DNA of 64,000 nt. It comes from Cantharellus purpuraceus. Taxonomy: Eukaryota > Basidiomycota > Agaricomycetes > Cantharellales > Hydnaceae. A program made the position numbers and the translations under genes. The stretch is from the NCBI GenBank assembly GCA_025174535.1, contig JALBUN010000014.1:310001-374000 (forward strand). The letters are read 5' to 3'. The first letter of the stretch is position 1. Each line of letters opens with the position of its first letter. The notes under the pieces were generated by a model that was not told where the DNA came from, searched no databases, and worked only from the letters and a program-made list of their open reading frames with translations. Below, piece by piece: positions 2,427-46,640 of this stretch.

Positions 2427-2638
2427 TTAGGTCACAATAAGCTTAATTGTGACCTTGATTGAGACACCATGTTAGCAGTTGCCTCCTCCTCATCCATTCA
2501 GTTGGATGAGGATGTAATGATGACATCAGGGGCAACTGAGAGTTGTCCTCCTCCAAAGCCATATGATCAAGATGATCATATGGACACTTACTTGTCCAAA
2601 CAGCTCCATAAGGAGCTGTATGACTAATTAGTGAATGA
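2427..2638 (+). pseudogene. F-family gene, C-terminal fragment (copy F1)
   Basis: Continues the reading frame of the sliver at 1784-1806 once the solo LTR and one TTAGG copy are removed. The protein contains AVASSSSIQLDED, matching AIASSSSIQVDED of the long F copy. It has one internal stop (TGA, 2460-2462) and ends at TAA 2636-2638. The DNA is rich in perfect hairpins: stems at 2488-2495/2504-2511, 2559-2568/2574-2583, 2601-2607/2612-2618 and 2633-2640/2646-2653. Function unknown; no known domain recognised. Confidence 0.7.
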
Positions 2639-3438
2639 GGTCATGCCTCATTCAAAAAGGAGAGGGTATCAGTACCCTAGGTACTTAATTATGGTAGAAT
2701 AATATATATATATATATGCATGTATTTGTATCTATAGCATTCCCTTAAGGAATGCTGCTTCTTGGTAGCTATATGTGCCCATGGGGTGCATATATACAGT
2801 TATTATATAATCAGTGGACCCAAGTATACATGTGAGTCCATGTGTAGTTAGACACTTGTTCAGAATCATATCATTATACACTATTCTTGTTATGACTATA
2901 TTCATTATCCCCGTCCGATCCACTCAGATCCCCATGCATATGAAATCTATACTCCATTTGGAAACCGCCATGTCTCCATTTTATCTGTCCGATTGTCACC
3001 ACTGAATCTCGCTCATCCATCTCCGGTTCCGATTGATGCATCAGCATCACCATAGGAACCCGGACATCCGTCCCCATCGGACTCGGACAGACTCATGTAA
3101 GGCCGTCGGCCTCGGAGACCCATCACTGGAGTAATTATTATCAAATATGTATTTAAGCTGCCCGACTGGGGACGTCATTCCCGAATATCAAATCATGCCT
3201 AGTTCCTAAGTCCGATCCTAACTCTCTAAGTCGTACTCCATCTCCAAAATCTCGGACACTGGTATTAGTGAGGGCGCAGCACATAAGCTGAAGCCAAGTC
3301 TGTTCAGACCCCCATGACGTACCCGACTCCTTCTCTGACTCCGACCAGACCTCCAACCAAACCTCTGACCCAATCTCCGACCCCAAATCGGACCTAGTGC
3401 GTAACAGTATATTCAAACTGCCATACTCACTCCTACCA
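2639..3438 (+). other. F flank, then leader and probable 5' LTR of the decayed gypsy element
   Basis: Up to about 2760 the sequence keeps the hairpin-rich F character (for example GCATTCC/GGAATGC at 2737-2743/2749-2755). A TA dinucleotide run lies at about 2700-2718. From about 3090 it is GC-richer and leads into gag. A TATTTAAG near 3151-3158 could be the LTR promoter. No second LTR copy is present, so the LTR limits cannot be set, and no credible gene is seen. Confidence 0.4.
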
Positions 3439-4574
3439 ATGCTACGATCCACCGCCAATTCCAAACATGCACGAACCATCGAGGTGTCTGCTCCCAGCAT
3501 CGACACCATCCCCGAGGTTGTCGAAGAACCGACGGACCACATAGAGGCCATCAATGAAGAAGACGACACTCCACCCTCTCCAAATCTGGCGCAAGCCATC
3601 TCCCTGCTCGCCAGCAGCATCCATACCCCACAAGCCCCTAAGTCCCGGACCAAGGTCTGAGAACCTGACCCATTCGATGGCTCTGATCCGTGAAAGCTCC
3701 AGCCATTCTTGGTGCAATGCTGGTTGAATTTCCGCGACTGCCCCGACGCGTTCACATCCGATCGGGTGAAGGTCACCTTCACCATGTCCTATCTCAAGGG
3801 CACCGCACTGGACTACTTTGAGCCAGCGCTCATGGACGACTCCGATGACCTGATATGGTCAGAAGACTACTCCGACTTCATCTCCAAACTTTGGACCAAT
3901 TTTGGCCCTTACAATCCTGAGGCTGATGCCGAGAATGAACTTGATCGACTTCGGATGAAGGAAAATCACAAAATCACAAAATACATTGTGAGTTTCCAGC
4001 AGCTAGCCCCAAAAGTCCAATGGGGCGATGCCACACTCCGACGCCAATTTTACGTTGGTCTCCCATCCTGCATCAAGGATGAGATATCACACATCAGGAA
4101 ACCGGATACTTTGATAAACCTTCGCAAGCTCACCCAATCCATCGATGCCCATTATTGGGAACGTCAATCCGAGGTCTCCTGCGAAAATTTGGCCAACAAC
4201 AAATTGGACAAATCATCGGACAAGACCCCAAAGTCCAACAAGGGGTCCAATAAGAAGACCACCACCAACTTAGGCCAGAAGTCAAACACTGGTAACGCTG
4301 CTGCTTCCAGTTCTGGTCAGAACAACTCCAGAACCGGCAATAGCTCTGAGCTCGCAAGAGCACTCTGGACCTCTCTACCAAGCTGGGAAAAGATGGAAAA
4401 CTTACCCAGCAGGAACGCCAGCACCGCATGGACAACAACCTCTGTCTGTTCTGTGGAAAACCTGGCCACCAAGTCTGCAACAAGGCAACCTCATCCGCAG
4501 CAAAGGCAAAGGGCTGTGCCGCCAATGCCATGACGGACAAGTCCAATGCTAAAGCAACGGACCCAAAAAAATAG
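3439..4574 (+). pseudogene. Ty3/gypsy Gag, decayed
   Basis: Gag-like protein starting at ATG 3439. The capsid region (about 3700-4180) includes FKGT-like YLKGTALDYFEPAL and FGPYNPEADAENEL segments typical of fungal gypsy Gag. A CX2CX4HX4C zinc knuckle (CLFCGKPGHQVC, about 4446-4481) lies in a different frame, so there is a frameshift around 4330-4380. Two in-frame stops (3658-3660, 3691-3693) are both TGA at positions where the context suggests arginine. The gag frame ends at TAG 4572-4574, directly after a run of seven A (4565-4571). The capsid should be non-functional. Confidence 0.85.
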
Positions 4575-6473
4575 TAAGCAGTCCTCTAGCCTCCGTACAG
4601 GCTGAGGGCTGCATTGGTACTCCCTGTATAACAAACAAGGTCTGCCTGAACACATCCACTCTTTCCCACTCTGACTCCCTCAACCTCCTCATCTACTCTG
4701 ACTCCATTCCCAATACCGCTATCCAAGCATTAGTTGACTCTGGTTCTACTCACTGTTTCCTTGACTCCTCTTTTTCCAATTTACATAAACTCCATACATA
4801 CACCATAACTCTGATATCACTCTGATTATTTGATGGCACTACTAATGCTGTTATTTCACAAGCTATAGATCTGTCTATCTGTTTTTCTGTTGGAGAAATC
4901 CAGAACCTTACATTCTATGTTACTCCGCTTGACTCCAGCTGTTCTGTGGTTCTCAGACATAATTGGCTCACCCGCTACAATCCATTGGTTGACTGGGCAT
5001 TGGGCCATATCACATTCTGTTCTCCAGTACAGGCTGTGTCATTCCCAACATCACCAGCAACTTTAGGTGCAAAACTATCTTCCACCTCCACTGACTCTGC
5101 TCCGATAGATACTCCATCTACCCCGCCGTTTATATCAATGGTGGATGCTATGGTCTTTGCCAGACTAAGCAAACTGGATGGCTCTCACACATTCCAGGTT
5201 CACCTCTCCAATCTGATATTCCTTGCCGCCTGTTCCACCTGATCAACTCTACCGGACCTATCTATGGTTCCTAAGGAGTATCATGAGTTTGCCAACATGT
5301 TCAGCAAGTCTAAAGCCAACTCCCTGGCAGAACACTGATCATATGATCTCAAGATTGAGCTGGATGACAACTCCACCCCTCCGCTTGGCCCTATTTACTC
5401 ACTATCCCAGAAAGAGCTACTGGCTCTCTGAACATTCATAGACGAGAACTTGGCCATGGGCTTCATCTGCCCATCCCTATCTCCCCATGGAGCTCTGGTC
5501 CTATTTGTCTACAAAAAGGAAGGATCACTCCACCTATGTGTTGACTTCTGTGGACTTAACAAGATCACCAAGAAAGACTGATACCCAATACCCTGCACCG
5601 CAGACCTACTCGAGAGTCCTTGAAAAGCTAAGATCTATTCCAAAATAGATCTCCGACATGCCTACCATCTAGTCCGCATCTGAGAAGGCAACGAATGGAA
5701 AACGACTTTCCACATGCAATATGGATCTTTCAAGTGGTGTGTCATGCCCTTCAGACTAACCAATGCTCCAGCCACCTTCCAGAGGTTCATGAATGATACC
5801 TTCGCTGACCTTCTCAATGTGACCGTCCTCGTTTACTTAGATGACATTTTGGTATATTCAGACAACAAAGAAGAACATTGGACACATGTCTGAGAAGTAC
5901 TCTGACATCTCCAAAAACATGGCCTTTTCGCCCACGCTGACAAATGCGAATTCCACTCCGACTCAGTCGAGTATCTAGGCTATATCCTCTTCCCGGCAGG
6001 ACTGATGACAAAATCAAAGCCATACAGGAATGGCCAGAACCATGGAAAGTCAAAGACATACAGTCCTTCCTGGGGTTCACTAACTTCTACCGCTGCTTCA
6101 TTTACAGCTACTCCGATATCACCATTCCGCTCACCCAACTTACTAGGAAGGGTACCCAATGGAATTTCACTGACAAATGTAGACAGAGCTTTGAGACCTT
6201 GAAAAGGGCCTTTACTTCCGCTCCGATACTGACTCATTGGGTTCCAGACATCCCTATCCTATTAGAAACCGATGCCTCCGACTATGCACTTGCCGTGATC
6301 CTGTCCATCATCTCTCCAGACGATGGACAAGTCCATCCGATCGCTTTTCACTCATGTACATTTACGCCCCCTGAACTGAACTATGATGTCCATGACAAAG
6401 AGCTCCTTGCCATATATGAAGCCTTCCAGATATGGAGACACTACCTCGAAGGCCCCTCTGATCCGGTGGACAT
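4571..6473 (+). pseudogene. Ty3/gypsy Pol (protease, RT, RNase H), decayed and truncated
   Basis: Pol is in the -1 frame relative to gag. Visible parts are the aspartic protease (ALVDSGSTHCF, about 4727-4760), reverse transcriptase with intact YLDDILVYS at 5834-5860, and RNase H with ETDASDYALA near 6268-6300 and HDKELLAI near 6391. Nine in-frame stops (4823, 5240, 5336, 5429, 5579, 5621, 5681, 5891, 5903) are all TGA. A further frame shift lies near 5995. RNase H is cut at 6473 by LTR D; connection domain, integrase and 3' LTR are missing. The enzyme would copy element RNA into DNA in virus-like particles, but this copy is dead. Confidence 0.9.
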
Positions 6474-7887
6474 TGTATGGGAACCACCTTTTCCCTATCA
6501 AATCCTATTTATGCAGCACCAATGTGCTATACTTTGCTTTTCCATTCCTAAATATCAGCATATATTTGGTGCTTGTACCTGGAATGGACTAATTCAAATA
6601 TTCTCTATTTTTCCATATTTTTTCAGGAATATTCCATGCAGAACTTGGCCCAGAATCATTTATTTCTGCTGTGCTACAGTTGTGGACCCATAGGTGCCCA
6701 CAAACATTCACACAGCCGGCTATCCACCTTTGGACCAGGCATTCAGCCTGAATTCAAGCTCAGATGTCTCTGATCAATAAATATTCTCTAACTTGACAAC
6801 CACAGCCTCTCAGGGCACTATTTTCCATGCAGATCATCACCTGAGATCTGGCTATCCATGGCTGTCCAAACCAGTGCAGAAAACAGGGTGGACACCCTTC
6901 TTCTTGCCTGATCAGTGCCTAGTTCAGGGATCAAATCAGGTGATTGCCTTGGAATATTCTACCCCTTTCCATAACATTCTAGCTGTTTCCTTCTATTATT
7001 AGATAGAACTTTCCAGAACCATTATTCAGCTCCTGATCAGTGTTAGTCCAGTGATCAGAACCTGTGATTGGCTTGGAATATTCTACCCCTTTCTTCCACC
7101 TTCCACAACCTTCCAGTAGTTTCCATCTATTAATAGGTAGAATATTCCAGAACCATTACTCAGCCCCTGTAAATACAATATATAAGGAGGCCATTCTGCC
7201 TCTGAAATAGTAACATATTCAACCTATTCTACCCATCTTCTGCACACCAGTGTGACTAGAGTGACATACAGTGTCATCCTCTATCTCAGTAACTGTTGAT
7301 TACCAGTTCAAGGATCTTTTACAGTTGTATAACTGTACTTGATTGCACTCAAAGTAGTGATATTCCTGCTTTGGGCGTGAGTGTAGCATCTGCCTCACGT
7401 GACTACGAATCTACAGGGTGAGATTGTCTGTCAATAGTCCTGCCATTAGTGCTCTTTGTTTAAGTTACTAGTGTGTACTGCCTTTGCAGAGCATTAGAAT
7501 CTTGAACTTGTGTGAAGCAGTTGCTAGACTATTTCACACATCGCTGTTACCCGCTTCTGAGTGCCACTGGTTGGATGGTTGGATTCATCCACCTACTTCC
7601 TTTAGCCTCTAAGTGCATTCCCCTCTTTTTGGAATATCTGGACCCCTAAGTGTCCGTGAACTCTAGACTCTGGAAGTCTTATTCATTTCTTGCTGCTAAG
7701 AAATGTATTACTTTTCTGCATATAGTCTGCATTGACCAATACAAGGGATTGTAACCAAAGTCCAAATGTTGAATTGTTTCTGGAGTTGTGCTGCAGCAGG
7801 GTTTGATATTCTTCTCAGCTGTTCATTCACGGAATTGTGGTGATTTAGAGTTTGCCCTAACACCATAATTTTGCGGGTTCCAAAACA
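6474..7887 (+). mobile_element. LTR, family D (copy D1)
   Basis: About 1.41 kb, TG..CA ends (TGTATGGGAACC ... GGGTTCC..ACA). It is nearly identical to 44639-46060 and its first ~208 bp also occur at 43393-43601. It has a TATA box (TATATAAGG, about 7179-7187), as expected for an LTR promoter. The left flank is gypsy RNase H coding sequence, the right flank is the middle of a family-A LTR, and the two flanks share no target duplication. That suggests a hybrid of two D insertions joined by recombination. Confidence 0.8.
7179..7187 (+). promoter_or_regulatory. TATA box of LTR D1
   Basis: TATATAAGG within the LTR, conserved in copy D3 (about 45355-45363). Placed roughly mid-LTR, as in other long LTRs; transcription is inferred, not shown. 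Confidence 0.5.
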
Positions 7888-8927
7888 CCAAACTCTGTTT
7901 ATTGTTTTTGTTACATCCTGTAACACTGAGTCCAATCTCCAGACTCCATCTCCACCTCCTTCTACTCCATGTCCATCAACTCCATCTCCAACAAACCTGA
8001 ACTCCATTTATTGTCTTCCTGATAAGTAGTTTCCTTGATATGGGTTACAATAACCATCCCTTTTTTATATTGATTAGTATTAGTTCAGACTTGAGTCTGA
8101 ACTCTGAACTCCTTTCCATGTTGTATTCCAGAATCCATCTATTGTTCTCCTACTCTAGTTTTTCATTCAATTCTTTGTATACTTATATCAGCTATTCTCT
8201 GTATGTTACAGTAGTTCATATATTGACCAAGTTTGACCTCATCATCTTCTTGGTTGCTAGCTTCCTGACAAGTAACTTCTTGACAAGTCAAACTCCAGAT
8301 CTCTGATCCAACTCTGTACCTCTGAACTCTGAAATATTGGACCAACAATCTGAGGGGGTGCAACACACAAGTTGAGGCCAAGTCCACTCAATCCAACTCA
8401 ATAGTATTGCACTCTGTCTCTGGTAGAACTGGAACAGTAAAGTCCTTCCTCATTCTTTAGCACCAACCCCAGTTACATCCTTGAACCTCCATGTCACAGC
8501 ACCTTAACAGTTTTCTTGATAAGTAGTCTCCTTGATATGGGTTACAATAAACATCACCTTTTATATTGATTAGTATTAGTTTGTACTTGAGTCCAAACTC
8601 CAATCTCTTTTCCATGTTATACTCCATATCTGTCTTATTGATCTCCTACTTTAGTTTTTCATTCAATTCCTCAGATACTTATATGGTCTATTCTCTGTAT
8701 GTTTCAGCAGTTCATATATTGACTAAGTTTGACTCCCACATCTTCTTGGTTGCTAGCTTCTTGACCAGTCTCTTCTTGACAAGTTGAACTCCAGATCTTT
8801 GATCCAACTCCATAGTTCTGGAACCTCCCTGTCTCCAGTTGAACTGAAAACAGTAAAGTCCCCTCTTATTCATTTTAGCACCCAACTCCAGTTACATCCA
8901 TTTGAACCTCATCTCAGCACTTAACAG
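7888..8927 (+). mobile_element. Family-A LTR fragment (A2) split by a later family-A LTR
   Basis: The stretch 7888-7908 (ccaaactctgtttattgttt and one more base) and the stretch from 8515 (cttgataagtagtc) are adjacent parts of the family-A consensus. They are separated by a complete family-A LTR (7909-8509) with its target duplication. The older copy ends ...CTTAACA at 8927, has lost its first ~100 bp to LTR D1, and has an internal deletion near 8815. It is therefore older than both D1's present junction and the inner LTR. Confidence 0.75.
7909..8509 (+). mobile_element. Solo LTR, family A, nested inside another family-A LTR
   Basis: A 601-bp LTR with TG..CA ends, starting with the same short palindrome as the other family-A copies. 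It is flanked by a perfect 5-bp duplication GTTTT (7904-7908 and 8510-8514). Insertion of an LTR element into an LTR of its own family, followed by loss of the interior, explains the arrangement. Confidence 0.9.
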
Positions 8928-24045: not shown

Positions 24046-26166
24046 ATGAACGTCCTAGTCTATAATGGCCCTGGGGTTTCACAGACATCGCTTTTCCACA
24101 CAATTTCATCACTCAAGGCACTCCTAACGCCCCACTTCGCAGTAGAAACTGTCAGCGCCACAGCGCTCGCTTCACAGCTGTGGTCAGAATCTTGCGCTCT
24201 GCTCGTTCTGCCAGGAGGTCGAGATTTACCATATCTAACTTCATTAGCCACTGCCACAAGTATCATTCGGTCCTACGTCAATGAAGGTGGCGCATTTCTG
24301 GGGATTTGTGCAGGTGCATATTACGCATCCCGCCGTGTAGAGTGGGAGACTGGCACCAAGTTCGAGGTATCAGGTGACCGCCCACTAGCCTTCTTCGACG
24401 GTATCTGCAAAGGCTCTGTCTACCCAGGTTTCACATATGACAGCGAAAATGGTGCACGAGCTGTAGCAGTAGAGGACGTGGACGAAGCTGAGATCATGTA
24501 TGGAATGTACTTTAACGGAGGCGGCGAGTTTATCGGCGTAGACACCTCCGACACTGCCACTGTGCTCGCAAAATACGTGGAAGAAGAAGGCCAAGGTAAA
24601 ATTGCCGCAGTCCGCTGCCGCGTAGGCAAAGGCTCTGTTGCCTTATGGGGCACTCACCCGGAGTATCCATTAACAAATGAACCCCTCCTCTCTGCCTTGA
24701 ACAAACGCTTTCCCCCGCTTTCTGAGGAACAAGTAGGAACTAATGAAGCGCGACGATGGAAGCTAATGCGGAAAACCCTTAGTTTATTAGGTCTGCAGCT
24801 TCCTGGCGGTGTCTCTGATCTTCCAAGATCTGTTGGGAGCCCACTGCCACAGATCTTGACATCTCCAATACCATCTCTCTCCATGCACGTTTATAACCTT
24901 TTGGCTGTACATGCGACATCGACAGGACTTAAATTTCTTCAAGATGAAAATGATACATTCCAATTGCATACTTCCTCGTCAGCCGCTTCTATTTTGCGAG
25001 AAGCGCGCAGCCGCTCTGAGTACCCTGTGGAACTAGAGTCGCCGAAAGATATCATATTCTACGGGGACGGGGAACTACCACCTACAGAACTTACACCTAA
25101 GTTCTCAATCCGGCAGTATTATTCTTATCTATCCACCGCCCGGACTTCACATGTTATCAAAGCTTTGAATGACACAGAGTCCTGGGGCATGGGACAACTT
25201 CTGTTATATGGAGAGGCAGTGACGTCGACACAGACTCTGCTTGATAGGTACCTCGCCACATTTCCCATCGAACCCGTCTCATAACCGCATACAGGAACCC
25301 GGTATTTCTCCGAGCCCTCCCGGCCCCGCTCCTCTCTCTGGCGACGTATCAATTGTTAGGACGTGGTCGCGGTTCCAATACGTGGGTGTCCCCAGCAGGA
25401 TGTCTTCAATTTTCTCTTCTTCTCCGACCTGGGCTCGTAACATTGCCAGCTTCTCGTCTCGTCTTTGTCCAGTACCTTTTTGCTCTTGCTGTTGTTGACG
25501 CCAGCAGAGAACTCATGGGAGAAGCTGGTGATCGCATCAGGTTGAAATGGCCGAATGATGTATATGCTCTTGTGGATGTGGTAGATGAAGATGGTCGCAT
25601 GAGAAAAGAGAAAAAGAAGATTGGGGGAATTCTGGTCAGCACCAACTTCAACGCCGGAGAAGTGGACATTATCATTGGTGTGTCAATCATATCTCTCTCT
25701 TGATAGCCCAAAATGATCTTACTTCGACATCAGGGTGCGGTCTGAACATCCTGAATCCACATCCCACGACCTCCCTGTCGCAATTGACAAGTAGAGATCT
25801 CAGCATAGAGAAGACGATGGCCACTATTATGGCTGTCTTCGAGAAAATGTGGGGTGTCTTTTTGGAAAGTCAAGGCTCTTTTGACTCCTTCATGGATTTT
25901 TATTTGGATCGCTGGCTTCATTCGTGCGTGGCGCCGACTTCACGAAAGCCTACTGTTGTTCTGACTGACTCCGAAGTGATCAACTTGTGACGCTGACTAC
26001 CGTCTCACCACCTGTTTCCGTTCGCATTGTGGGAATCACAACTGACTATGGCTTGCTGCGCACTGTCCCTGTAGCAAGGCAAGGGCGCCAGGAGAATTTC
26101 ATCGACTTGCAGCCTGATGGGAACAGCTTCGATCTGATGGCAGGATTGATAAAGACCAAAACTTGA
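24046..26166 (+). CDS. BPL1: Biotin--protein ligase (holocarboxylase synthetase)
   Basis: Joins biotin to acetyl-CoA carboxylase, pyruvate carboxylase and similar enzymes through biotinyl-AMP. The N-terminal half is the glutamine-amidotransferase-like BPL_N domain (VLVYNGPGVSQ, LLVLPGGRDLPY, GICAGAYYASRR). The C-terminal half is the catalytic domain: GRGRGSNTWVSPAG (adenylate-binding loop, about 25355-25400), RLKWPNDVYA (about 25540-25570), KIGGILV. Introns 25248-25294, 25678-25733 and 25924-25976 join in frame. The end is TGA 26164-26166. I chose ATG 24046; an upstream in-frame GTG is unlikely. Length, about 650 residues, is normal for fungal BPL1. Confidence 0.93.
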
Positions 26167-29882: not shown

Positions 29883-30117
29883 TGACGAAAGTTTTACTAT
29901 GAAGCGACTCGCCCTCAATGTGGAGGCATATGGATCCACGGTTCGGCGGGGTATACAAAAGTTTTCTTTCGGGCGCCTGCTGGAGTTCACGCCTTTATCC
30001 GTGAACTCCAGGCACACATAGTGATAGTTCTATATCTCTAATAGCTAATACATCACGCCTTTATCCGTGAACTCCAGACTTGAGGTCCAGCTCACCACCT
30101 GAACCTACTAGTTGTTA
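29883..30117 (+). mobile_element. 5' LTR of Ty1/copia element
   Basis: 235 bp, starts TGACGAAAG and ends GTTGTTA, the same length as the 3' LTR at 35691-35925. The element is flanked by TACGT (29878-29882) and TACAT (35926-35930), a 5-bp duplication differing by one CpG-to-CpA change. It contains a perfect 12-bp-stem hairpin (29980-29991 with 30000-30011) whose 8-nt loop is reversed in the 3' LTR. The hairpin's right half, CCTTTATCCGTGAACTCCAG, is repeated once more near 30058-30077. Confidence 0.93.
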
Positions 30118-35690: not shown

Positions 35691-35925
35691 TGATGAAAGT
35701 TTACTATGAAGCAACTCGCCCTCAATGTGGATGCATATGGATCCACAGTTTGGCGGGGTATACAAAAGTTTTCTTTCAGGTGCCTGCTGGAGTTCACAGA
35801 TAAAGGTGTGAACTCCAGGTACACATAGTGTGATGGTCTATATCTCTAATAGCTAATACATCATGCCTTTATCCATGAACTCCAGACTTGAGGTCCAGCC
35901 CACCGCCTGAACCTACTAGTTGTTA
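35691..35925 (+). mobile_element. 3' LTR of the copia element
   Basis: 235 bp, preceded by a purine-rich tract (GAGTGGGAG, 35682-35690) that would prime plus-strand DNA synthesis. It differs from the 5' LTR mostly by C-to-T or G-to-A at CpG, so this LTR is more decayed. The loop of the 12-bp hairpin (35787-35798/35807-35818) reads GATAAAGG, the exact reverse complement of CCTTTATC in the 5' LTR. Confidence 0.92.
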
Positions 35926-35930
35926 TACAT

Positions 35931-36432
35931 ACAGCCTTGTTTTTCTTGCTGCCCCTCAGTTCTTGATCACAGATTGTATTCAGAGTTTTCAGCTCCATAA
36001 TCATTTGTGTCAGTACAGTGTTGTGACCATTATCAGTCTAACAAAGAATAGTAAGTACAACTGTATTGGAATCCTTCCTAATGAGTAGTACACACACGCA
36101 AAGTCCCAACAGTATGCATAAGCACTGTCAGTGCTAGTGATTTTCCCTCAGTTGTTTAATCTACAACTGAGACTGAGAATAGTCAAATCTTAACAGACTG
36201 TACGAACTCTACCTAATATACACTCACCTCAGTTGTAGATTAAACAACTGAGGGAACTAGCACTGTGAGCACTTAGAGGTTGCATTACATAAGTCCAGCA
36301 CTTGTTTGAAGCGTGAGTGAAGCTCAAACTTGCAAATGCCATATTTTGCTCATTTCAGAATGAAATAAAATGTTCCATAACCTACAATTCCTAATGTAGT
36401 GTTATTTTATGATTTTTGTCTCTAAAACCACC
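35931..36432. other. AT-rich spacer containing a foldback repeat
   Basis: Between the copia target duplication and the end of the F2 gene. It contains the inverted repeat described separately at 36145-36254. No coding sequence supported. Confidence 0.4.
36145..36254. repeat. Foldback element: 27-bp perfect inverted repeat, each arm itself palindromic
   Basis: Arm 1 at 36145-36171 (CCCTCAGTTGTTTAATCTAC, then AACTGAG) is the exact reverse complement of 36228-36254. Each arm also folds on itself (CAGTTGT/ACAACTG). The match extends imperfectly outward through CAGTGCTAGT and ACTAGCACTG to about 36125-36270. It could be a small MITE-like element or part of a larger repeat. Confidence 0.75.
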
Positions 36433-36917
36433 TTAGTAACATTCACTTTTTCTGGCATGTTCATATGGCTCCAGAGGGGGATGGCTCTCAGTCGTCTCTG
36501 ACATTGTTGCGGTATCCTCATCCACTTGAATGGATGAGGAGGATGCAATTGCTACTGCAGCATCCTGATTGAGTTCACGATTAAGTTGACCATGACCTAA
36601 ACGCTCAGCAAGAGAGCATTTAGCAGCTTTATGAGCTGCTTGGGAGACTCCCTGAGTCTCCTGCTTTCGCTTACCAACCCTGGTGGGCTGGTTAAATGCT
36701 GCTCTGGAGACAATGTGTTTAGCAAACTCCTCTAATATAGCAGTGTGATTGGGGGTGATGCCTCCTGATCATCCAAACCAGAGCGCAAGCTCTAATTCAG
36801 TATGTTCTTTGGGGGAGTGATTCCCCCAATCATACACTCCAGTGACTGAAGTGTGAAAGGTGTCACCAAGAGTTGGTGAGAACTTTTGACCACTGGTCAA
36901 TAATCCCCAGTGGCCGG
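36433..36917 (-). pseudogene. F-family gene, 3' portion (copy F2, part 4)
   Basis: Minus-strand coding sequence continuing in frame from 38344 across LTR E2. It ends at TAA (36433-36435) after EHARKSECY. It includes HWGLLTSGQKFSPTLGDTFH and AIASSSSIQVDED; the latter matches F1 near 2480. One internal stop at 36769-36771 is TGA. Short inverted repeats recur throughout (for example CCTCATCC/GGATGAGG at about 36517). Product unknown; no known domain recognised. Confidence 0.65.
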
Positions 36918-38343
36918 TGACGAGCCAGGATGCATCGAGGATGGATATCGAACCACTCTGACAGTCCAACTCCGCCAGCGTCTTTTCATATCAACCTTTA
37001 AATAGCGCCGCAACTCCCTCTCTACCTCAGTCTCTAATTCTAGCCATCAATCATCACTCGTGTTTCATCACCATTGATCATTATCAGCCTTCAATTCACA
37101 CCAATCCTTTCATCATCATTCACATGGCTTCCAATTCTATTCCCCTCTCCAACATCTCTTCTAATAATACGTCACACTGGTCTCTGGACACAGAGGACTA
37201 TCAAAAATACGCTGAGCTCCACGGGCATGTTAAGCCACCTCCACATGTCAAAATACTTCCAAAACTCTTTCAATGTCCAAGATCCCCACCATGTCTCTCT
37301 TATGCCATTGGCAATCCCATATTCTTTCACGATTCTGTTGAACCATATACATTCCTCGGCATTTCGCCTCTATATTGTAACATGGATAGAAGAGTCAAAT
37401 GTGAGGTAGAATTTCAGTCGCCATCGCAGACCTATCCTCCCACTTCAATCTGACTCAGGTTACATCGTGTCAGGCAAAGGGACTGAATACCCTTGGAATG
37501 GGATACCATATGGAGACGGATCACTAAGACAATAAGGACTATTTGTTGTGGATGCTGACTGAAGTCCTCATGTGACTCAGGGTCAATTTACCTTCGGAGC
37601 TGTATGGAAGATGGTATTGGTGGACATTTCTATTGTTCTTTTATATGACTCACCCCTGTTTCATCTTTTAATTCATTCATACACGACTTACTCATCCTTG
37701 TTCTATTTTTGGTTCTTTTATTACTCATCAACCCCTATTCTTACAAAGATTACCCCTATCTGTCGCTTCATTTCTCCATGATTTCCCCATTAGTAGTTCA
37801 ACTTCACACGCTTCGTCAGCTGCTTCATCAGCATTTCTTGCATCATTTCGCATCATTTGCTCCTCATATTGTGTCATTGTGCCCTGGGGATTTGTATATA
37901 AAAGGGCGCTAGTTTTTGCCTTTGGAAGGAATCAACAAGTTTTCAGCCAACGCTCTAAAGTCAAAGTCCATGCTCTAAGTCTACACTCTACGCTCTACAT
38001 CACAATCCATCAGCTCTACACTGAGGTAAAACACCTTGGTTCGACGATCAGATTTCCCTCCACCACCGAGAGGTTGCTTCTCCTGAAACCAGCTTTCGCA
38101 TACCTCCCAACCGGGCTCTGCATTGTCATCCAGTCACAGAGCACGATCAGCCATCGGGACCGACCTTTTGCTCCCATCCTCATCCAACCACAGAGCACTA
38201 TTCCACTTTCCTGTTATTCAGTGCTACCTCTACCCCTCGACCTGATTGATCTTTGGAGTGCTGAACAACTGCGTTACACACCGTCTGTTTGCTAGGACCG
38301 TTGCGCGCAGGCTTATAGGATCTATTCCATAAGCGAACCGACA
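36918..38343 (+). mobile_element. Solo LTR, family E (copy E2), inside the F2 gene
   Basis: 1426 bp, TG..CA ends, flanked by perfect CCGG (36914-36917 and 38344-38347). Removing it and one CCGG joins the minus-strand F2 frame as FQNPG-HWGLL. It carries the conserved open frame at 37124, cut short by TGA, and a TATA box at 37895. Confidence 0.9.
37895..37906 (+). promoter_or_regulatory. TATA box of LTR E2
   Basis: TATATAAAAGGG, identical in E1 and present inverted in E3 (about 43691-43702). It fits an LTR promoter; activity is inferred. Confidence 0.55.
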
Positions 38344-38624
38344 CCGGGATTCTGGAACATAGTCCAGAGGTTCTTCTTAAATACAGAAGAACCCTTCTTG
38401 GGAGTGGCCTTTTGTAGCCACATCCAGATGTCCACATCAGACAGGTTCATGGTACCATCCAACTCCTGTCAGATGGCCAGGGGGACTCCATTAGGGTTTA
38501 CTTGCCACCCCTGTATGAGGGCAAGTGTGTCTACCAGTGTGGTCAGTAGAGTGCCGATAAGACTCACATTATCAGCGCAAGCCAGCAGAGTCATTCTCTT
38601 GATGACTCTGCACATTGGTACAGT
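38344..38624 (-). pseudogene. F-family gene (copy F2, part 3)
   Basis: Minus-strand coding sequence with MTLLACADNVSLIGTLL and DIWMWLQKATPKKGSS and one TGA stop (38469-38471). Its upstream end, ACTGT (minus strand 38624-38620), is the target duplication of LTR C1. The matching copy is now displaced to 40828-40832. Joining the two there gives the uninterrupted frame TLFTEQT-VPMCRVIKR. Hairpins include AGAGTCAT/ATGACTCT (38587-38609). Confidence 0.65.
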
Positions 38625-39947
38625 TGTTTTGGAACTGTGAACTTCAACCTAAACTGTGGTGTTAATCACAATCTAAGTTTAGCCCAAGGATGTATGACCT
38701 TTCAAGGCTAGCAATAAGCTTGAAACTATTTTAACGGAGAACCCAATTAAGAAATTATACTCTGGTAAACAAACACAATCAATGTTGCCACAGGGAGTGG
38801 GGCAATAGAGATTTTTATGCTTGTCACGTGTAGTTCATGCTTTACTGCTGATGCAATGTAAAGTCAAGATTGACAGGCATTCAAGGGTTCAGATACTTCA
38901 AAGGGGGAAGTAACCTAGTGCCTTAGGACCACAGGTTGAGTGGATTAAAGCCAACAATAATCCCTTCAACGTAAAAAGATAGATACGCACTTGAACACTT
39001 CCTTCTGAACAAGCGTATTCACTGTATGTGTCTTCTCTGTGATAGAATCAACAGTCAAGGGATATTAATCTCGTCTCAAAGAGGTGAGTTAATAGACTGT
39101 GGTGTTGATTTATTGAAATGCCCACATTTGAACCAACTGATCAATAGCAAAGTATGTATTAACCTGACTAACCTCAGAGTCTCAATTAAACATGTAAGGT
39201 TCTTGATTATAACCAATTGCCCAATATGTGATAATTTGACTAACCTCAGAGTCTCAATTACATGTGTAAGGTTCTTGATCAATGAATAACAATTAATACA
39301 CTTCAATTTACTGCTCCAAGTGGGCTTGTAGTGTGTTAATTACTAATCAGTTACTCTGTATCAACCTCTTCTCCAAGTTTGATTAATATTAGAGCCTGCT
39401 GGACTTGTAATATAATAGCTTCTGGCTTCTCCAAGAGTCAATCAAAGCTAATATACCTTAAGAGTAGCTGATATAAGCATGCTGCTTATGTGATGATTAC
39501 TCAATGCTTGAGTAGACACTGCTCTGTGTGTGTGTGGTAAAAAGATATTTTTATTGCACTGCTGTTGCAGCCCTTTTTATATACATGGGCTATCTAATTA
39601 GAGAATATTCCTGAGGCTTAGGGAAGCCCCTGGAAGGAAAGAGAAAGCTGGAGAACCTTGTGGAAGGTCCAGGAAGGTGTCAGAACCTTCTGTGGCCGCT
39701 TTTGGCTAAAGTGCATGAACTCTGCTGCTTATGTAATATGTGCATTGTTCGCTCATGCACAAGTGCTCTTTGAGGTCACATGACATATTATATCAGCAAC
39801 TGACCCATTGTGCATTGTGTATACTTGTGGGCTCAAATACACAAAAATGTGAAATATAAGTACATTCAATAGAACATTTGAAATACCTTTGAACTACTAA
39901 ATAATAGTCCTTATTTGAAGTAGTTTAGAACTTCATATACCTCAACA
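38625..39947 (-). mobile_element. LTR, family C (copy C1), left arm of a large inverted repeat
   Basis: 1323 bp with TG..CA ends, nearly identical to the reverse complement of 40833-42155. On its sense (minus) strand it has a TATA box and a nearby AATAAA. It contains a diverged tandem repeat (39163-39207 and 39237-39279, TGACTAACCTCAGAGTCTCA core). Its left flank ACAGT is the reverse complement of the bases just before C2, not of those after C1. Confidence 0.88.
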
Positions 39948-40832
39948 CATTAAGAGTCGCATGGCCGCAACTTATATGCAACATCGAAGATGATGTTGCA
40001 ACACCTTATTGTGAAGACTACGATAAGATGTACAAGGATAACTCAGACCTGTTTGCACAGGTCCAAGAACTCAAAGGACTTCTTGACAATGAGAAGTCCA
40101 AAGTAACTTGTCTCAGAGACAAGTTAAAAACACTGAAGGAGGCTGCTAATAAAGCACCTCCTACATTCAAGACCAACAATGGTGTGCTTGGCCCCAGTAG
40201 CATCGCTATTACGTGCTACAGCAGGCAAATCATTGCCTGCCATTATGCCATCACAACCTGTGGCTTCATTGTCACAGGAAATGATTGATCTCACCAAAGA
40301 GGATGATCACCCAAGCAAATTGCCTCAGATCAATTCTTGAGGGTTCAAAGGTCAAGATTGGGACAACACTGACCCAATCTGGGAGGGATATGACCATGAT
40401 CATGGCCTCCTCCTGGCTAGCATCCCCAAGGGTGCTAAGCAACCAGGCAAACTCAAAGAGTTTGCCCTATCAGAAATCAAAGCTGAGATTGATCAGCTTT
40501 GAAAGGAATATATGGCTGGTGATGCCAGTGTACCTTAAAAGACCCAGTGTTGAAGATGCTGGAGGAAGCCCAGCATATGAATTATTGCAAATGCTGGGAC
40601 AATTTCAGGCATGCTTGAGAGCATGCCAATGCAGGGAAATCATTCCCCAAATGGGCACCATGGTTCATGACTGCAGCTGACCCCCCAGAGCAGTCACTGG
40701 CCACCTGCTGTGACCTCTGGGCAAGTCTGCCCCTATCAGGGCAGACTGGTTTGACATCTGTGATATAGACACTCTGGAGTTTATATCACTCCATAAAAAG
40801 GCATTGGCCACACTGTTCACAGAACAGACTGT
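39948..40832 (+). pseudogene. F-family gene, inverted segment (copy F2, part 2)
   Basis: Coding on the plus strand, opposite to the rest of F2. The first part, from about 39986, reads DDVATPYCEDYDKMYKDNSD, then a heptad-like coiled coil (VQELKGLLDNEKSKVTCLRD). Later parts are in shifted frames with stops; the end reads ALATLFTEQT. Perfect hairpins are dense: stems at 40046/40058, 40076/40092, 40105/40116 (10 bp, 1-nt loop), 40221/40233, 40479/40493, 40569/40591, 40608/40620 and 40724/40739. No known domain. Confidence 0.65.
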
Positions 40833-42155
40833 TGTTGGGGTATATGAAGTTCTAAACTACTTCAAATAAGGACTATTATTTAGTAGTTCAAAGGTATTTC
40901 AAATGTTCTATTGAATGTACTTATATTTCACATTTTTGTGTATTTGAGCCCACAAGTATACACAATGCACAATGGGTCAGTTGCTGATATAATATGTCAT
41001 GTGACCTCAAAGAGCACTTGTGCATGAGCGAACAATGCACATATTACATAAGCAGCAGAGTTCATGCACTTTAGCCAAAAGCGGCCACAGAAGGTTCTGA
41101 CACCTTCCTGGACCTTCCACAAGGTTCTCCAGCTTTCTCTTTCCTTCCAGGGGCTTCCCTAAGCCTCAGGAATATTCTCTAATTAGATAGCCCATGTATA
41201 TAAAAAGGGCTGCAACAGCAGTGCAATAAAAATATCTTTTTACCACACACACACAGAGCAGTGTCTACTCAAGCATTGAGTAATCATCACATAAGCAGCA
41301 TGCTTATATCAGCTACTCTTAAGGTATATTAGCTTTGATTGACTCTTGGAGAAGCCAGAAGCTATTATATTACAAGTCCAGCAGGCTCTAATATTAATCA
41401 AACTTGGAGAAGAGGTTGATACAGAGTAACTGATTAGTAATTAACACACTACAAGCCCACTTGGAGCAGTAAATTGAAGTGTATTAATTGTTATTCATTG
41501 ATCAAGAACCTTACACATGTAATTGAGACTCTGAGGTTAGTCAAATTATCACATATTGGGCAATTGGTTATAATCAAGAACCTTACATGTTTAATTGAGA
41601 CTCTGAGGTTAGTCAGGTTAATACATACTTTGCTATTGATCAGTTGGTTCAAATGTGGGCATTTCAATAAATCAACACCACAGTCTATTAACTCACCTCT
41701 TTGAGACGAGATTAATATCCCTTGACTGTTGATTCTATCACAGAGAAGACACATACAGTGAATACGCTTGTTCAGAAGGAAGTGTTCAAGTGCGTATCTA
41801 TCTTTTTACGTTGAAGGGATTATTGTTGGCTTTAATCCACTCAACCTGTGGTCCTAAGGCACTAGGTTACTTCCCCCTTTGAAGTATCTGAACCCTTGAA
41901 TGCCTGTCAATCTTGACTTTACATTGCATCAGCAGTAAAGCATGAACTACACGTGACAAGCATAAAAATCTCTATTGCCCCACTCCCTGTGGCAACATTG
42001 ATTGTGTTTGTTTACCAGAGTATAATTTCTTAATTGGGTTCTCCGTTAAAATAGTTTCAAGCTTATTGCTAGCCTTGAAAGGTCATACATCCTTGGGCTA
42101 AACTTAGATTGTGATTAACACCACAGTTTAGGTTGAAGTTCACAGTTCCAAAACA
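40833..42155 (+). mobile_element. LTR, family C (copy C2), right arm of the inverted repeat
   Basis: 1323 bp, TGTTGGGG ... CCAAAACA. Same length as C1 and nearly identical to it in reverse. TATA box TATATAAAAAGGG at 41197-41209 and AATAAA at about 41225. Both sides lie in F2 coding sequence. No matching duplication is seen around C2 after correcting for the inversion (taatg/gaaac). Confidence 0.88.
41197..41209 (+). promoter_or_regulatory. TATA box of LTR C2
   Basis: TATATAAAAAGGG, followed about 20 nt later by AATAAA, a typical LTR promoter and polyadenylation arrangement. The same pair exists inverted in C1. Confidence 0.5.
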
Positions 42156-43392
42156 GAAACTTTGTACTTGATGGCCCTAGAAGATTATTCATCTTCAGCC
42201 ATCATAGCATACCTGCTACAAAGATCTCAAACTCTTTGAGATCTGCACCTCCTGTGTATTGCTCAGGAGGCAATACTTTAATGCCTGCCTTGGCAAGTAC
42301 AGACTTCTCTGGGTCTGTATCTCTATTATCAACTATGGCTACTTGCACCATGTGAGTAATGCCATCATCAATAGGATCAATTGTGTCCAATTGATCCAGT
42401 ATGCCTTGACCTTCTAGGGTCAATGGCACTGATTGTTCCCTGTTATGGGGAACATCTTGAGGTACCCATTGGGTATCTCATTGCCCATGGTGGGTGTCTC
42501 CTGAAAGGCCCACCACTCATACATGCTGATAACTGTTCAGCACATGTTGCAACTGTCAGTTTAAGTTGACTGCCACATTAAGCTCTTGCTGGGGCCACTG
42601 CTCTCTAAACAGCTGGCCAAGCTCCTGCTCTGCATGTTTAGCCTTCCATTCAAGGGCTAACCTGTGTTTACGAGAAGCCTCAACTTCTCATTGTTTCCAT
42701 AGCTCAATCTCTTGATTGAGCTCCTTTGCCATAGATTGAGGAGTTTCTTCCTCAATCTGGATCGGTAATCCTTGCCTTACAGGGATTACTGGGTCTCTGA
42801 TTCCCTCCATTGGGGGAATCTCATTTCCTCTGTCCAACTGATCATTCGGTTGGATCCTCTCACTCTGGGGAGATCCAGACTCTCTGGATTCAGATTCTCA
42901 TTGAGAATCTGATCTTTGGTGACATGACTTGCATTGCTCAGAGTTCTCTTGGAGCAATTTTAACATCATTCCTAGCTCTGCTATTTGCTGCCCCATAGTA
43001 GTGGCAGCATGCCCTGCTTTGGCAGCCATCTTAGCTGCCTGAGCACTAGCTTTGCCAATGCTCTTCATCTCATGTTGATTACACATGAGTTGTTCAGTCA
43101 ATCTCACGATTGACCTGTGAGTTTCACACCACTCCATGCTGCATGATTCCCTAGTAGAAGTATTGCTACTTCTACTTATGCTGCATATTGAGCACATTCC
43201 TTTCCTTTAGGAATGTTGGAGGCAGTTAACGACTGTCTCCTCCTTTCTTCTCTAATCAGAGAACCACTCGATGAGGGATTCCTGTTTGACAGACGATCTA
43301 TTGTGCAATTGTCTGCATGGTCTTGTGACTGCAATGACTCTCTCCTAGAGTCCTCCTTATGAGAAGTCCCTACAACTTCTCTAGGGTCTAGC
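42156..43392 (-). pseudogene. F-family gene, Gag-like N-terminal portion (copy F2, part 1)
   Basis: Minus-strand coding sequence cut at its 5' end by LTR fragment D2 and at its 3' end by LTR C2. It holds a helical segment (GIGKAS-like SAQAAKMAAKAGHAATTMG, about 43050) and EQYTGGADLKEFEIFVAGML (about 42265-42207), which resembles the start of retrotransposon capsid proteins. Stops at 42204, 42478, 42517, 42556 and 42688 (plus coordinates) are all TGA; a frameshift lies near 43180. Hairpins include 42224-42233/42237-42246 (10 bp), 42374-42382/42389-42397 (9 bp), 42701-42709/42714-42722 (9 bp) and 42892/42903. Confidence 0.65.
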
Positions 43393-43601
43393 TGTATGGG
43401 AACCACCTTTTCCCTATCAAATTCTATTTATGCAGCACCAATGTGCTCTTTTGCTTTTCCATTCCTAAATATCAGCATATACATGGTGCTTGTGCCTGGA
43501 ATGGACTTATTCAAATATTCTCTATTTTTCCATATTTTTTCAGGAGTATTCCATGCAGAACTTGGCCCAGAATGCTCTTATTCTGCTGTGCTATAGTTGT
43601 A
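43393..43601 (+). mobile_element. LTR D fragment (copy D2), first ~208 bp
   Basis: Starts TGTATGGGAACCACC inside F2 coding sequence and matches the first part of D1/D3. It stops abruptly at the end of the inverted LTR E3. Confidence 0.8.
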
Positions 43602-46435: not shown

Positions 46436-46504
46436 CTGACTCATGGGGTGGAGGTAAGAGAAGTTATAGGGAAGAAACAGGGGGCATACAAGAGAACTTT
46501 GGGT

Positions 46505-46640
46505 GCATTTTGACTGCCTGAGCACTAGCATCACTAATGCTCTTTATCTCATGCTGATTCTGCATGAGATGCTTGGTTAATCTTGTGATACCTCTAAATG
46601 GGACAAGAGCAGGAGCAATCTTATGCATTATTGAAAGCAG
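46505..46640 (-). pseudogene. F-family gene fragment (copy F3)
   Basis: Minus-strand reading RLTKHLMQNQHEIKSISDAS matches RLTEQLMCNQHEMKSIGKAS of F2 near 43090-43030. It contains a perfect 9-bp hairpin (46546-46554/46562-46570). A third F-family locus in this window, short and broken. Confidence 0.7.

Follow-up and report, generated by a model that had tools for sequence, protein, structure and literature searches.

F elements in the window and in the genome

The stretch of DNA analysed here, hereafter the window (64,000 nucleotides of Cantharellus purpuraceus; contig JALBUN010000014.1 of assembly GCA_025174535.1, positions 310,001–374,000), holds broken pieces of a repeated element, F, whose DNA is packed with short perfect inverted repeats. 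Two of these pieces had been described in an earlier note on this DNA as a single gene copy, F2, at 39948–43392, but they are separate, broken and on opposite strands, around a long terminal repeat (LTR; TG...CA; 40833–42155, plus strand) that appears to belong to an unrelated element. The first (F2a; 39948–40832, plus strand), to which the name F2 gene had been given, is the 3′ region of F downstream of the integrase; the second (F2b; 42156–43393, minus strand) is the 5′ part, with a gag resembling the Ty3 capsid. The genome was scanned for relatives (40.15 Mb, 50 contigs), and the loci compared are labelled L001–L070; L061–L063, three 9.9-kb stretches with long F copies, join F2a and F2b as parts of a single element. 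F2a corresponds to L062 positions 7803–8699 (89% identity) and F2b to 2103–862. Two further minus-strand pieces are a stretch that comes next after the 3′ region in longer copies (38344–38624; L062 8958–8695) and the 3′ tail preceding the LTR (36458–36919; L062 9353–8957). A second F subfamily, approximately 76% identical to the first, is represented by a 3′ tail and LTR start at 2427–2854 (plus strand; six perfect stems), and a short F gag fragment with one perfect stem lies at 46497–46589 (minus strand).

The sequence identifies F as an old Ty3/gypsy LTR retrotransposon, with the order gag, CCHC, protease, reverse transcriptase, RNase H, integrase, SH3-like end, a 3′ region of about 2 kb and an LTR of about 270 bp; a retroelement had already been suspected from the Gag-like start, and this suspicion is borne out. 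The gag matches Ty3_capsid with an E-value of 8.5e-6 (25.8 bits, under the cut-off of 29.1) and zf-CCHC over its cut-off, and the capsid piece has 191 relatives at E ≤ 0.001. In L062 the pol domains are RVP_2 at 3002, RVT_1 at 4318, RT_RNaseH_2 at 4711 (under cut-off), Integrase_H2C2 at 5716 and SH3_Tf2-1 at 6553. Direct LTRs are found in a single element, that of L061 (2183–2421 and 9663–9901, 94% identical); as read from the alignment, the F LTR starts with TGTAAGTA and ends near TTTACA. The domain order from Gag to integrase and the direct LTRs of L061 are shared with Ty3/gypsy elements (Metaviridae), from which F differs by carrying hairpins across its coding and non-coding parts and by its long 3′ region: three pieces scanned from the region downstream of the integrase (L062:7493–9411) had zero Pfam matches, and a homologue search with one 140-aa piece of it found none. 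A scan of the F gag alignment against viral contigs and genome contigs returned zero relatives.

F2a occurs at 40 genomic places including the window, the others being 85–90% identical (best 40 of 152 candidates), and F2b at 41 places of more than 900 bp including the window, the others 83–92% identical (best 40 of 955 candidates). Equal-scoring F copies on contigs C37 (two places), C35 and C1 (977 bits; 1505–1509 bits) probably stem from duplicated blocks, which on C37 lie in both orientations.

Density and distribution of hairpins

Perfect stems were counted with arms of at least 8 bp and loops of at most 15 nt (1–15 nt in the window count) and compared with 200 dinucleotide shuffles of each segment. 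Segment 39948–40832 has 11 such stems (shuffle mean 0.33, maximum 3) and 41800–43392 has seven (mean 0.40, maximum 3). The whole window contains 55–56 in two counts, of which 30 fall in 3.4 kb of F-like DNA (8.9 per kb) and 25 in the remaining 60.6 kb (0.41 per kb); DNA outside the F mask at 70 loci from the genome, overlapping loci counted too, has 0.96 per kb. Genes in the window stand at 1.3–1.6 times chance (seven stems vs 4.5 expected and four vs 3.15), and the other elements of the window at 0 to about 3 times chance (0 vs 0.2, 6 vs 1.85, 1 vs 0.5, 0 vs 0.15 and 3 vs 1.15, the last in an element that includes the small F fragment), so that the excess claimed for F survives the comparison with neighbouring genes and other retroelements that the earlier note had proposed.

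The individual claims of that note were largely accurate: eight of its nine listed stems are exact and the ninth is displaced by two bases (truly 42222–42231/42235–42244); for 39948–40832, where it gave at least five stems of 8 bp or more with loops of at most 10 nt, nine were counted; and the stem sequences are indeed unrelated to one another, not copies of one repeated element. The high density that it described is confirmed by the shuffles and extends more widely, over the whole element. L062 carries 70 perfect stems in 9,055 bp (1.7 when shuffled), in gag, across the enzyme domains and on as far as the LTR, with 34, 18, 14, 3 and 1 stems of 8, 9, 10, 11 and 12 bp vs 1.95, 0.15, 0.1, 0.05 and 0 in shuffles. 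When loops of 0–60 nt are admitted, the three long copies together contain 219 stems of at least 8 bp, of which 201 have loops of at most 18 nt, with a peak at 4. Every one of 30 F2a copies, two near-identical pairs among them, has 2–11 stems (mean 7.2 vs 0.30 shuffled). The codon-shuffled control, which the earlier note had listed among its refuting conditions, also left the excess standing. It used 12 open segments of L062, reaching from gag into the 3′ region, each with 200 synonymous-codon permutations: stems of at least 7 bp number 64 vs 7.4 (above the mean in 12/12 segments and above the permutation maximum in 9/12), and stems of at least 8 bp 30 vs 2.6 (above the mean in 11/12 and above the maximum in 3/12).

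Codon usage or protein sequence as the cause is contradicted by these permutations. Chance or base composition, contradicted by the dinucleotide shuffles, deserves practically no credence, and the same holds for an assembly artefact, contradicted by the hairpin excess in all 30 F2a copies at different genomic places. The earlier note's remark that it knew of no described family with this property agrees with the titles and abstract openings of the open-access literature, in which no hairpin-filled element family was found (subscription journals were outside the scope).

Small hairpin clusters also occur outside the F mask at L004:3172–3240 and L064:3321–3518, possibly marking other hairpin-rich families. 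In the window, two hairpins outside the mask (36147–36171 and 36227–36253), about 80 bp apart, are mutual reverse complements.

Strand symmetry, pairing and decay

RNA folding was predicted on both strands for 16 successive pieces of L062, four gene pieces and four other-element pieces, each against 20 shuffles. The z-scores of L062 range from −3.6 to −16.0 on the sense and from −3.4 to −14.9 on the antisense strand, vs −1.1 to +1.6 for the gene pieces and −3.9 to +0.9 for the other elements (both strands). In six alignments, from which stem pairs were picked at ≥20% (tail) or ≥30% (blocks) support, 88–92% of stem pairs are Watson-Crick, vs 20–28% when partners are slid by one position; pairs with double-sided changes number 13, 25, 9, 24, 20 and 19 per alignment vs 6, 10, 2, 3, 6 and 6 in the slid structure. 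Mismatched cells of these stem pairs comprise 1210 G·T, 1297 A·C and 333 others, and single interior mismatches in individual copies of three sets comprise 15/45/7 G·T, 30/58/22 A·C and 31/23/11 others. Inside the long stems of subfamily 1, the single non-Watson-Crick pairs shared between copies are two G·T, three A·C and three others, in blocks with 1,108 supported pairs. Neither better folding of the sense strand nor tolerance of G·U above A·C is seen in these mostly decayed copies. The asymmetry of pair types (A-T 3814, T-A 3460, C-G 3472, G-C 3053) was considered as a sign of strand and set aside as weak.

Differences between copies are dominated by decay: 62–71% of pairwise differences fall in columns alternating CG, TG and CA, the mark of CpG decay. 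At L001–L030 the observed/expected ratio of CpG is 0.04–0.36, which marks pronounced decay of CG to TG/CA, of the kind that methylation or a process like repeat-induced point mutation would leave. The two arms of a stem decay independently; coupled decay was looked for in F2a and F2b and not found, compatible double changes numbering 204 vs 196 expected and 230 vs 224 expected, respectively. Since resident copies are thus not maintained, the origin of the stems most likely lies in the active lineage. The idea that CpG decay made them was not supported: with the state of CG/TG/CA columns disregarded, the stem count rose from 9.3 to 13.5 in one block and fell from 7.03 to 6.68 in the other.

Loop inversions and inverse-matching arms

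Among 68 hairpin sites (29 + 39), whole loops are inverted in some copies at four: GGGT/ACCC in 1/30 copies, AAA/TTT in 7/30, CTCA/TGAG in 1/30 and AAGA/TCTT in 2/30. The third is an inversion in the window copy itself, whose hairpin at 40608–40627 (plus strand) reads GGCATGCT-TGAG-AGCATGCC whereas the loop is CTCA in 27 of the 30 copies aligned; the fourth is at the hairpin at 42701–42722 (minus strand), whose 4-nt loop is inverted in L052 and L055, the inversion extending to as much as 14 nt in certain pairs. A comparison of all pairs for segments of 4 nt or more that are exactly inverted added a fifth site (CAATAGA/TCTATTG). Exact inversions of at least 7 nt occur at three sites, where they reach 7, 10 and 14 nt, a length matched by no mirror-image or complement-only control; these controls gave five windows (≤6 nt) and three windows (≤4 nt), respectively. 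Three further 4-nt inverse windows, one of them equally complement only, are likely misalignments and were dropped like the eight control windows, as was an apparent flip at columns 161–173, where pairs toggle at CpG sites. Inversion of the loop between copies with the stems kept, a sign of template switching, is therefore present at five sites. The AAA/TTT states are scattered on the tree, requiring five changes, at least two of them forced by well-supported branches (59/500 shuffles are equally low).

Candidate new arms were read from alignments of the 3′ tail of subfamily 2. In L067 an 8-nt insertion yields a 17-bp stem with a 1-nt loop, in L070 several changes yield a 12-bp stem, and in L069 a 15-bp stem results from additional copies that match the right arm in inverse form. 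Together with the loop inversions, such inverse-matching arms are probably footprints of fold-back template switching.

Origin of the hairpins

The account that we somewhat favour is that DNA synthesis of F, in its active lineage, switched template repeatedly at short imperfect inverted repeats and so gathered perfect stems. The growing strand would fold back, or jump to the complementary strand, copy the opposite arm for about 10–17 bases (the range of the three examples) and return to its template; near-palindromes would become perfect stems with lengthened arms, both sides of a pair would change at once and the loop would sometimes be flipped. Most stems would have arisen by such switching while the lineage was replicating, probably through the reverse transcriptase of the element and not a host polymerase; replication of the element itself is implicated because the hairpins are concentrated in F. 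Fold-back switching is favoured because it explains together the Watson-Crick stems, the strand symmetry, the short loops, the flips and the arms that look inversely copied. A stronger version, which we put forward only tentatively, is that reverse transcription of F habitually folds back, so that the birth, perfecting and flipping of hairpins are its main mode of evolution and its entire coding genome, including the catalytic domains, is a chain of perfect Watson-Crick hairpins under a protein-coding filter.

Several results weigh against fold-back switching in the active lineage. Template switching, suggested as one cause by the earlier note, gains from the loop inversions and the arms that look inversely copied, but new events are rare: when five blocks (102 copies, mostly subfamily 1, with near-identical rows removed) were scanned strictly, an inverse copy explained one of 152 changed clusters, a direct copy one, and mirror and complement copies none. 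A scan of the tail set gave four inverse matches (two being a single locus represented twice), one mirror, one complement and no direct; it caught only L067 of the three examples, its match in L069 being another hairpin. The L069 insertion could equally be a tandem duplication, and the new arm lies 3′ of its source in L067 and 5′ in L069, so no strand is indicated. Double-sided Watson-Crick changes are few between subfamilies: in four comparisons of subfamily-1 stem pairs (357 CpG-column and 26 gapped cells set aside), 277 pairs are unchanged and 11 compensatory, and 46 are not Watson-Crick (20 G·T, 17 A·C, 9 other). Six overlapping alignments contain 148 hairpin sites; at 40 of them the hairpin is present in half of the rows or more, at 28 in a single row. 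Beside a Copia-type gag, moreover, a 12-bp hairpin has its 8-nt loop flipped between the repeats 29980–30011 and 35787–35818, so flipping is not confined to F; it seems to befall good hairpins generally, and F is special in how many it has. Why that wealth belongs to F rather than to other elements is left without explanation by template switching.

The main rival, selection for a genome-wide structure of the element's RNA (in packaging, protection or translation) with compensatory changes keeping the stems, is in our estimation unlikely. The stems do run through the whole element, all 16 pieces of L062 fold better than shuffles on the sense strand, and the 110 pairs with double-sided changes compare with 33 when the structure is slid one column. 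In the F2a homologue of subfamily 2 at L066, 77 of 92 stem pairs are the same as in most subfamily-1 copies, two are compensatory and 13 unpaired, a persistence that also counts against switching; and stem columns differ by about 10% vs 17–22% elsewhere, which leaves room for some constraint, the halved difference being largely expected because stems were picked as perfect in one subfamily. The signs expected of such selection, which the earlier note had offered as the other possible cause, are nevertheless missing, since the strands fold equally, A·C is about as frequent as G·U and common stems are almost purely Watson-Crick; G·T does not exceed A·C in the cell counts (1210 vs 1297 and 67 vs 110, mostly from decayed copies, which probe decay and not the active lineage) or among common pairs (2 vs 3), and loops invert between copies.

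Rather less probable again is template switching by the host's own DNA replication or repair at the hairpins of resident copies, F being merely rich in seeds. The flipped hairpin beside the Copia-type gag would fit, as would the inverse-matching arms in single copies and the 28 of 148 sites with a hairpin in one copy only; against this, genes stay close to chance and other elements range from 0 to about 3 times it, 120 of the 148 sites recur in more than one row and 40 in half of the rows or more (some loci being represented by two rows), and stem arms decay independently. Selection on structure at the DNA level, if for instance replication or integration required hairpins in single-stranded cDNA, would accord with the strand symmetry and the Watson-Crick-only stems; it seems very improbable given that some 70 stems, unrelated in sequence, are distributed along the element, and nothing comparable was met in the open-access titles and abstract openings.

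Some RNA viruses have genome-scale ordered RNA structure, with excess folding along the whole genome. F resembles them in its whole-length folding excess and differs in being strand-symmetric and Watson-Crick only, with short perfect stems. In plant plastid DNA, loop-flipping hairpins are scattered; the small (hairpin loop) inversions of chloroplasts share with F the flipping of loops between perfect arms. Quasipalindrome-associated mutation in E. coli is likewise reported to involve template switching (PMC7202029) at imperfect inverted repeats, at bacterial hot spots as opposed to the element-wide state of F. In rRNA genes, mutations by template switching that give rise to RNA hairpins and preserve them are attributed to DNA replication (Monttinen and Loytynoja, 2022; PMC8794818); the footprint classes given there (multiple compensatory changes, loop inversion only, stem-half insertion) are the same, and what sets F apart is that it is a mobile element, packed with hairpins that reverse transcription probably made.

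If fold-back switching did make these stems, F documents template switching as it occurred in nature, and a single many-copy family allows stems, loop flips and copied arms to be counted. Mutational bias alone could then give a coding genome extreme, seemingly conserved secondary structure, a caution against reading an excess of structure or covariation as selection, and the origin of perfect RNA stems would become testable in an active element of the F type.

Arrangement of the broken copy and neighbouring sequence

The F copy of the window, interrupted by stop codons, is further disrupted by a second copy of the unrelated LTR in the opposite orientation (38625–39947, minus strand); with 40833–42155 it forms a 1323-bp inverted repeat of 99.9% identity that flanks an inverted F segment. 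Its left arm is hairpin-poor (one stem, 0.25 expected). Because 39948–40832 is sense on the plus strand and 42156–43393 on the minus strand, the former is inverted relative to the rest of the copy, and along the minus strand the order is gag (43393–42156), the opposed LTRs enclosing the inverted 3′ region, and the tail pieces. The pentamer ACTGT stands at 40828–40832 and, reversed, at 38620–38624, and is single in L062 at the same point; the remaining two LTR edges (39948–39952 and 42156–42160) have no common duplication. As ACTGT is found at two of the four outer LTR edges only, the wrecked copy likely reflects insertion of an LTR element, inversion between its two LTRs and loss of pol. Elsewhere in the window, a biotin-protein-ligase gene (24046–25284), by whose matches the host would be an agaricomycete close to the Gomphales, has among the 120 of 490 matches listed Ramaria rubella as the nearest named one at 70%, then Hysterangium at 64%, and others at up to 86%.

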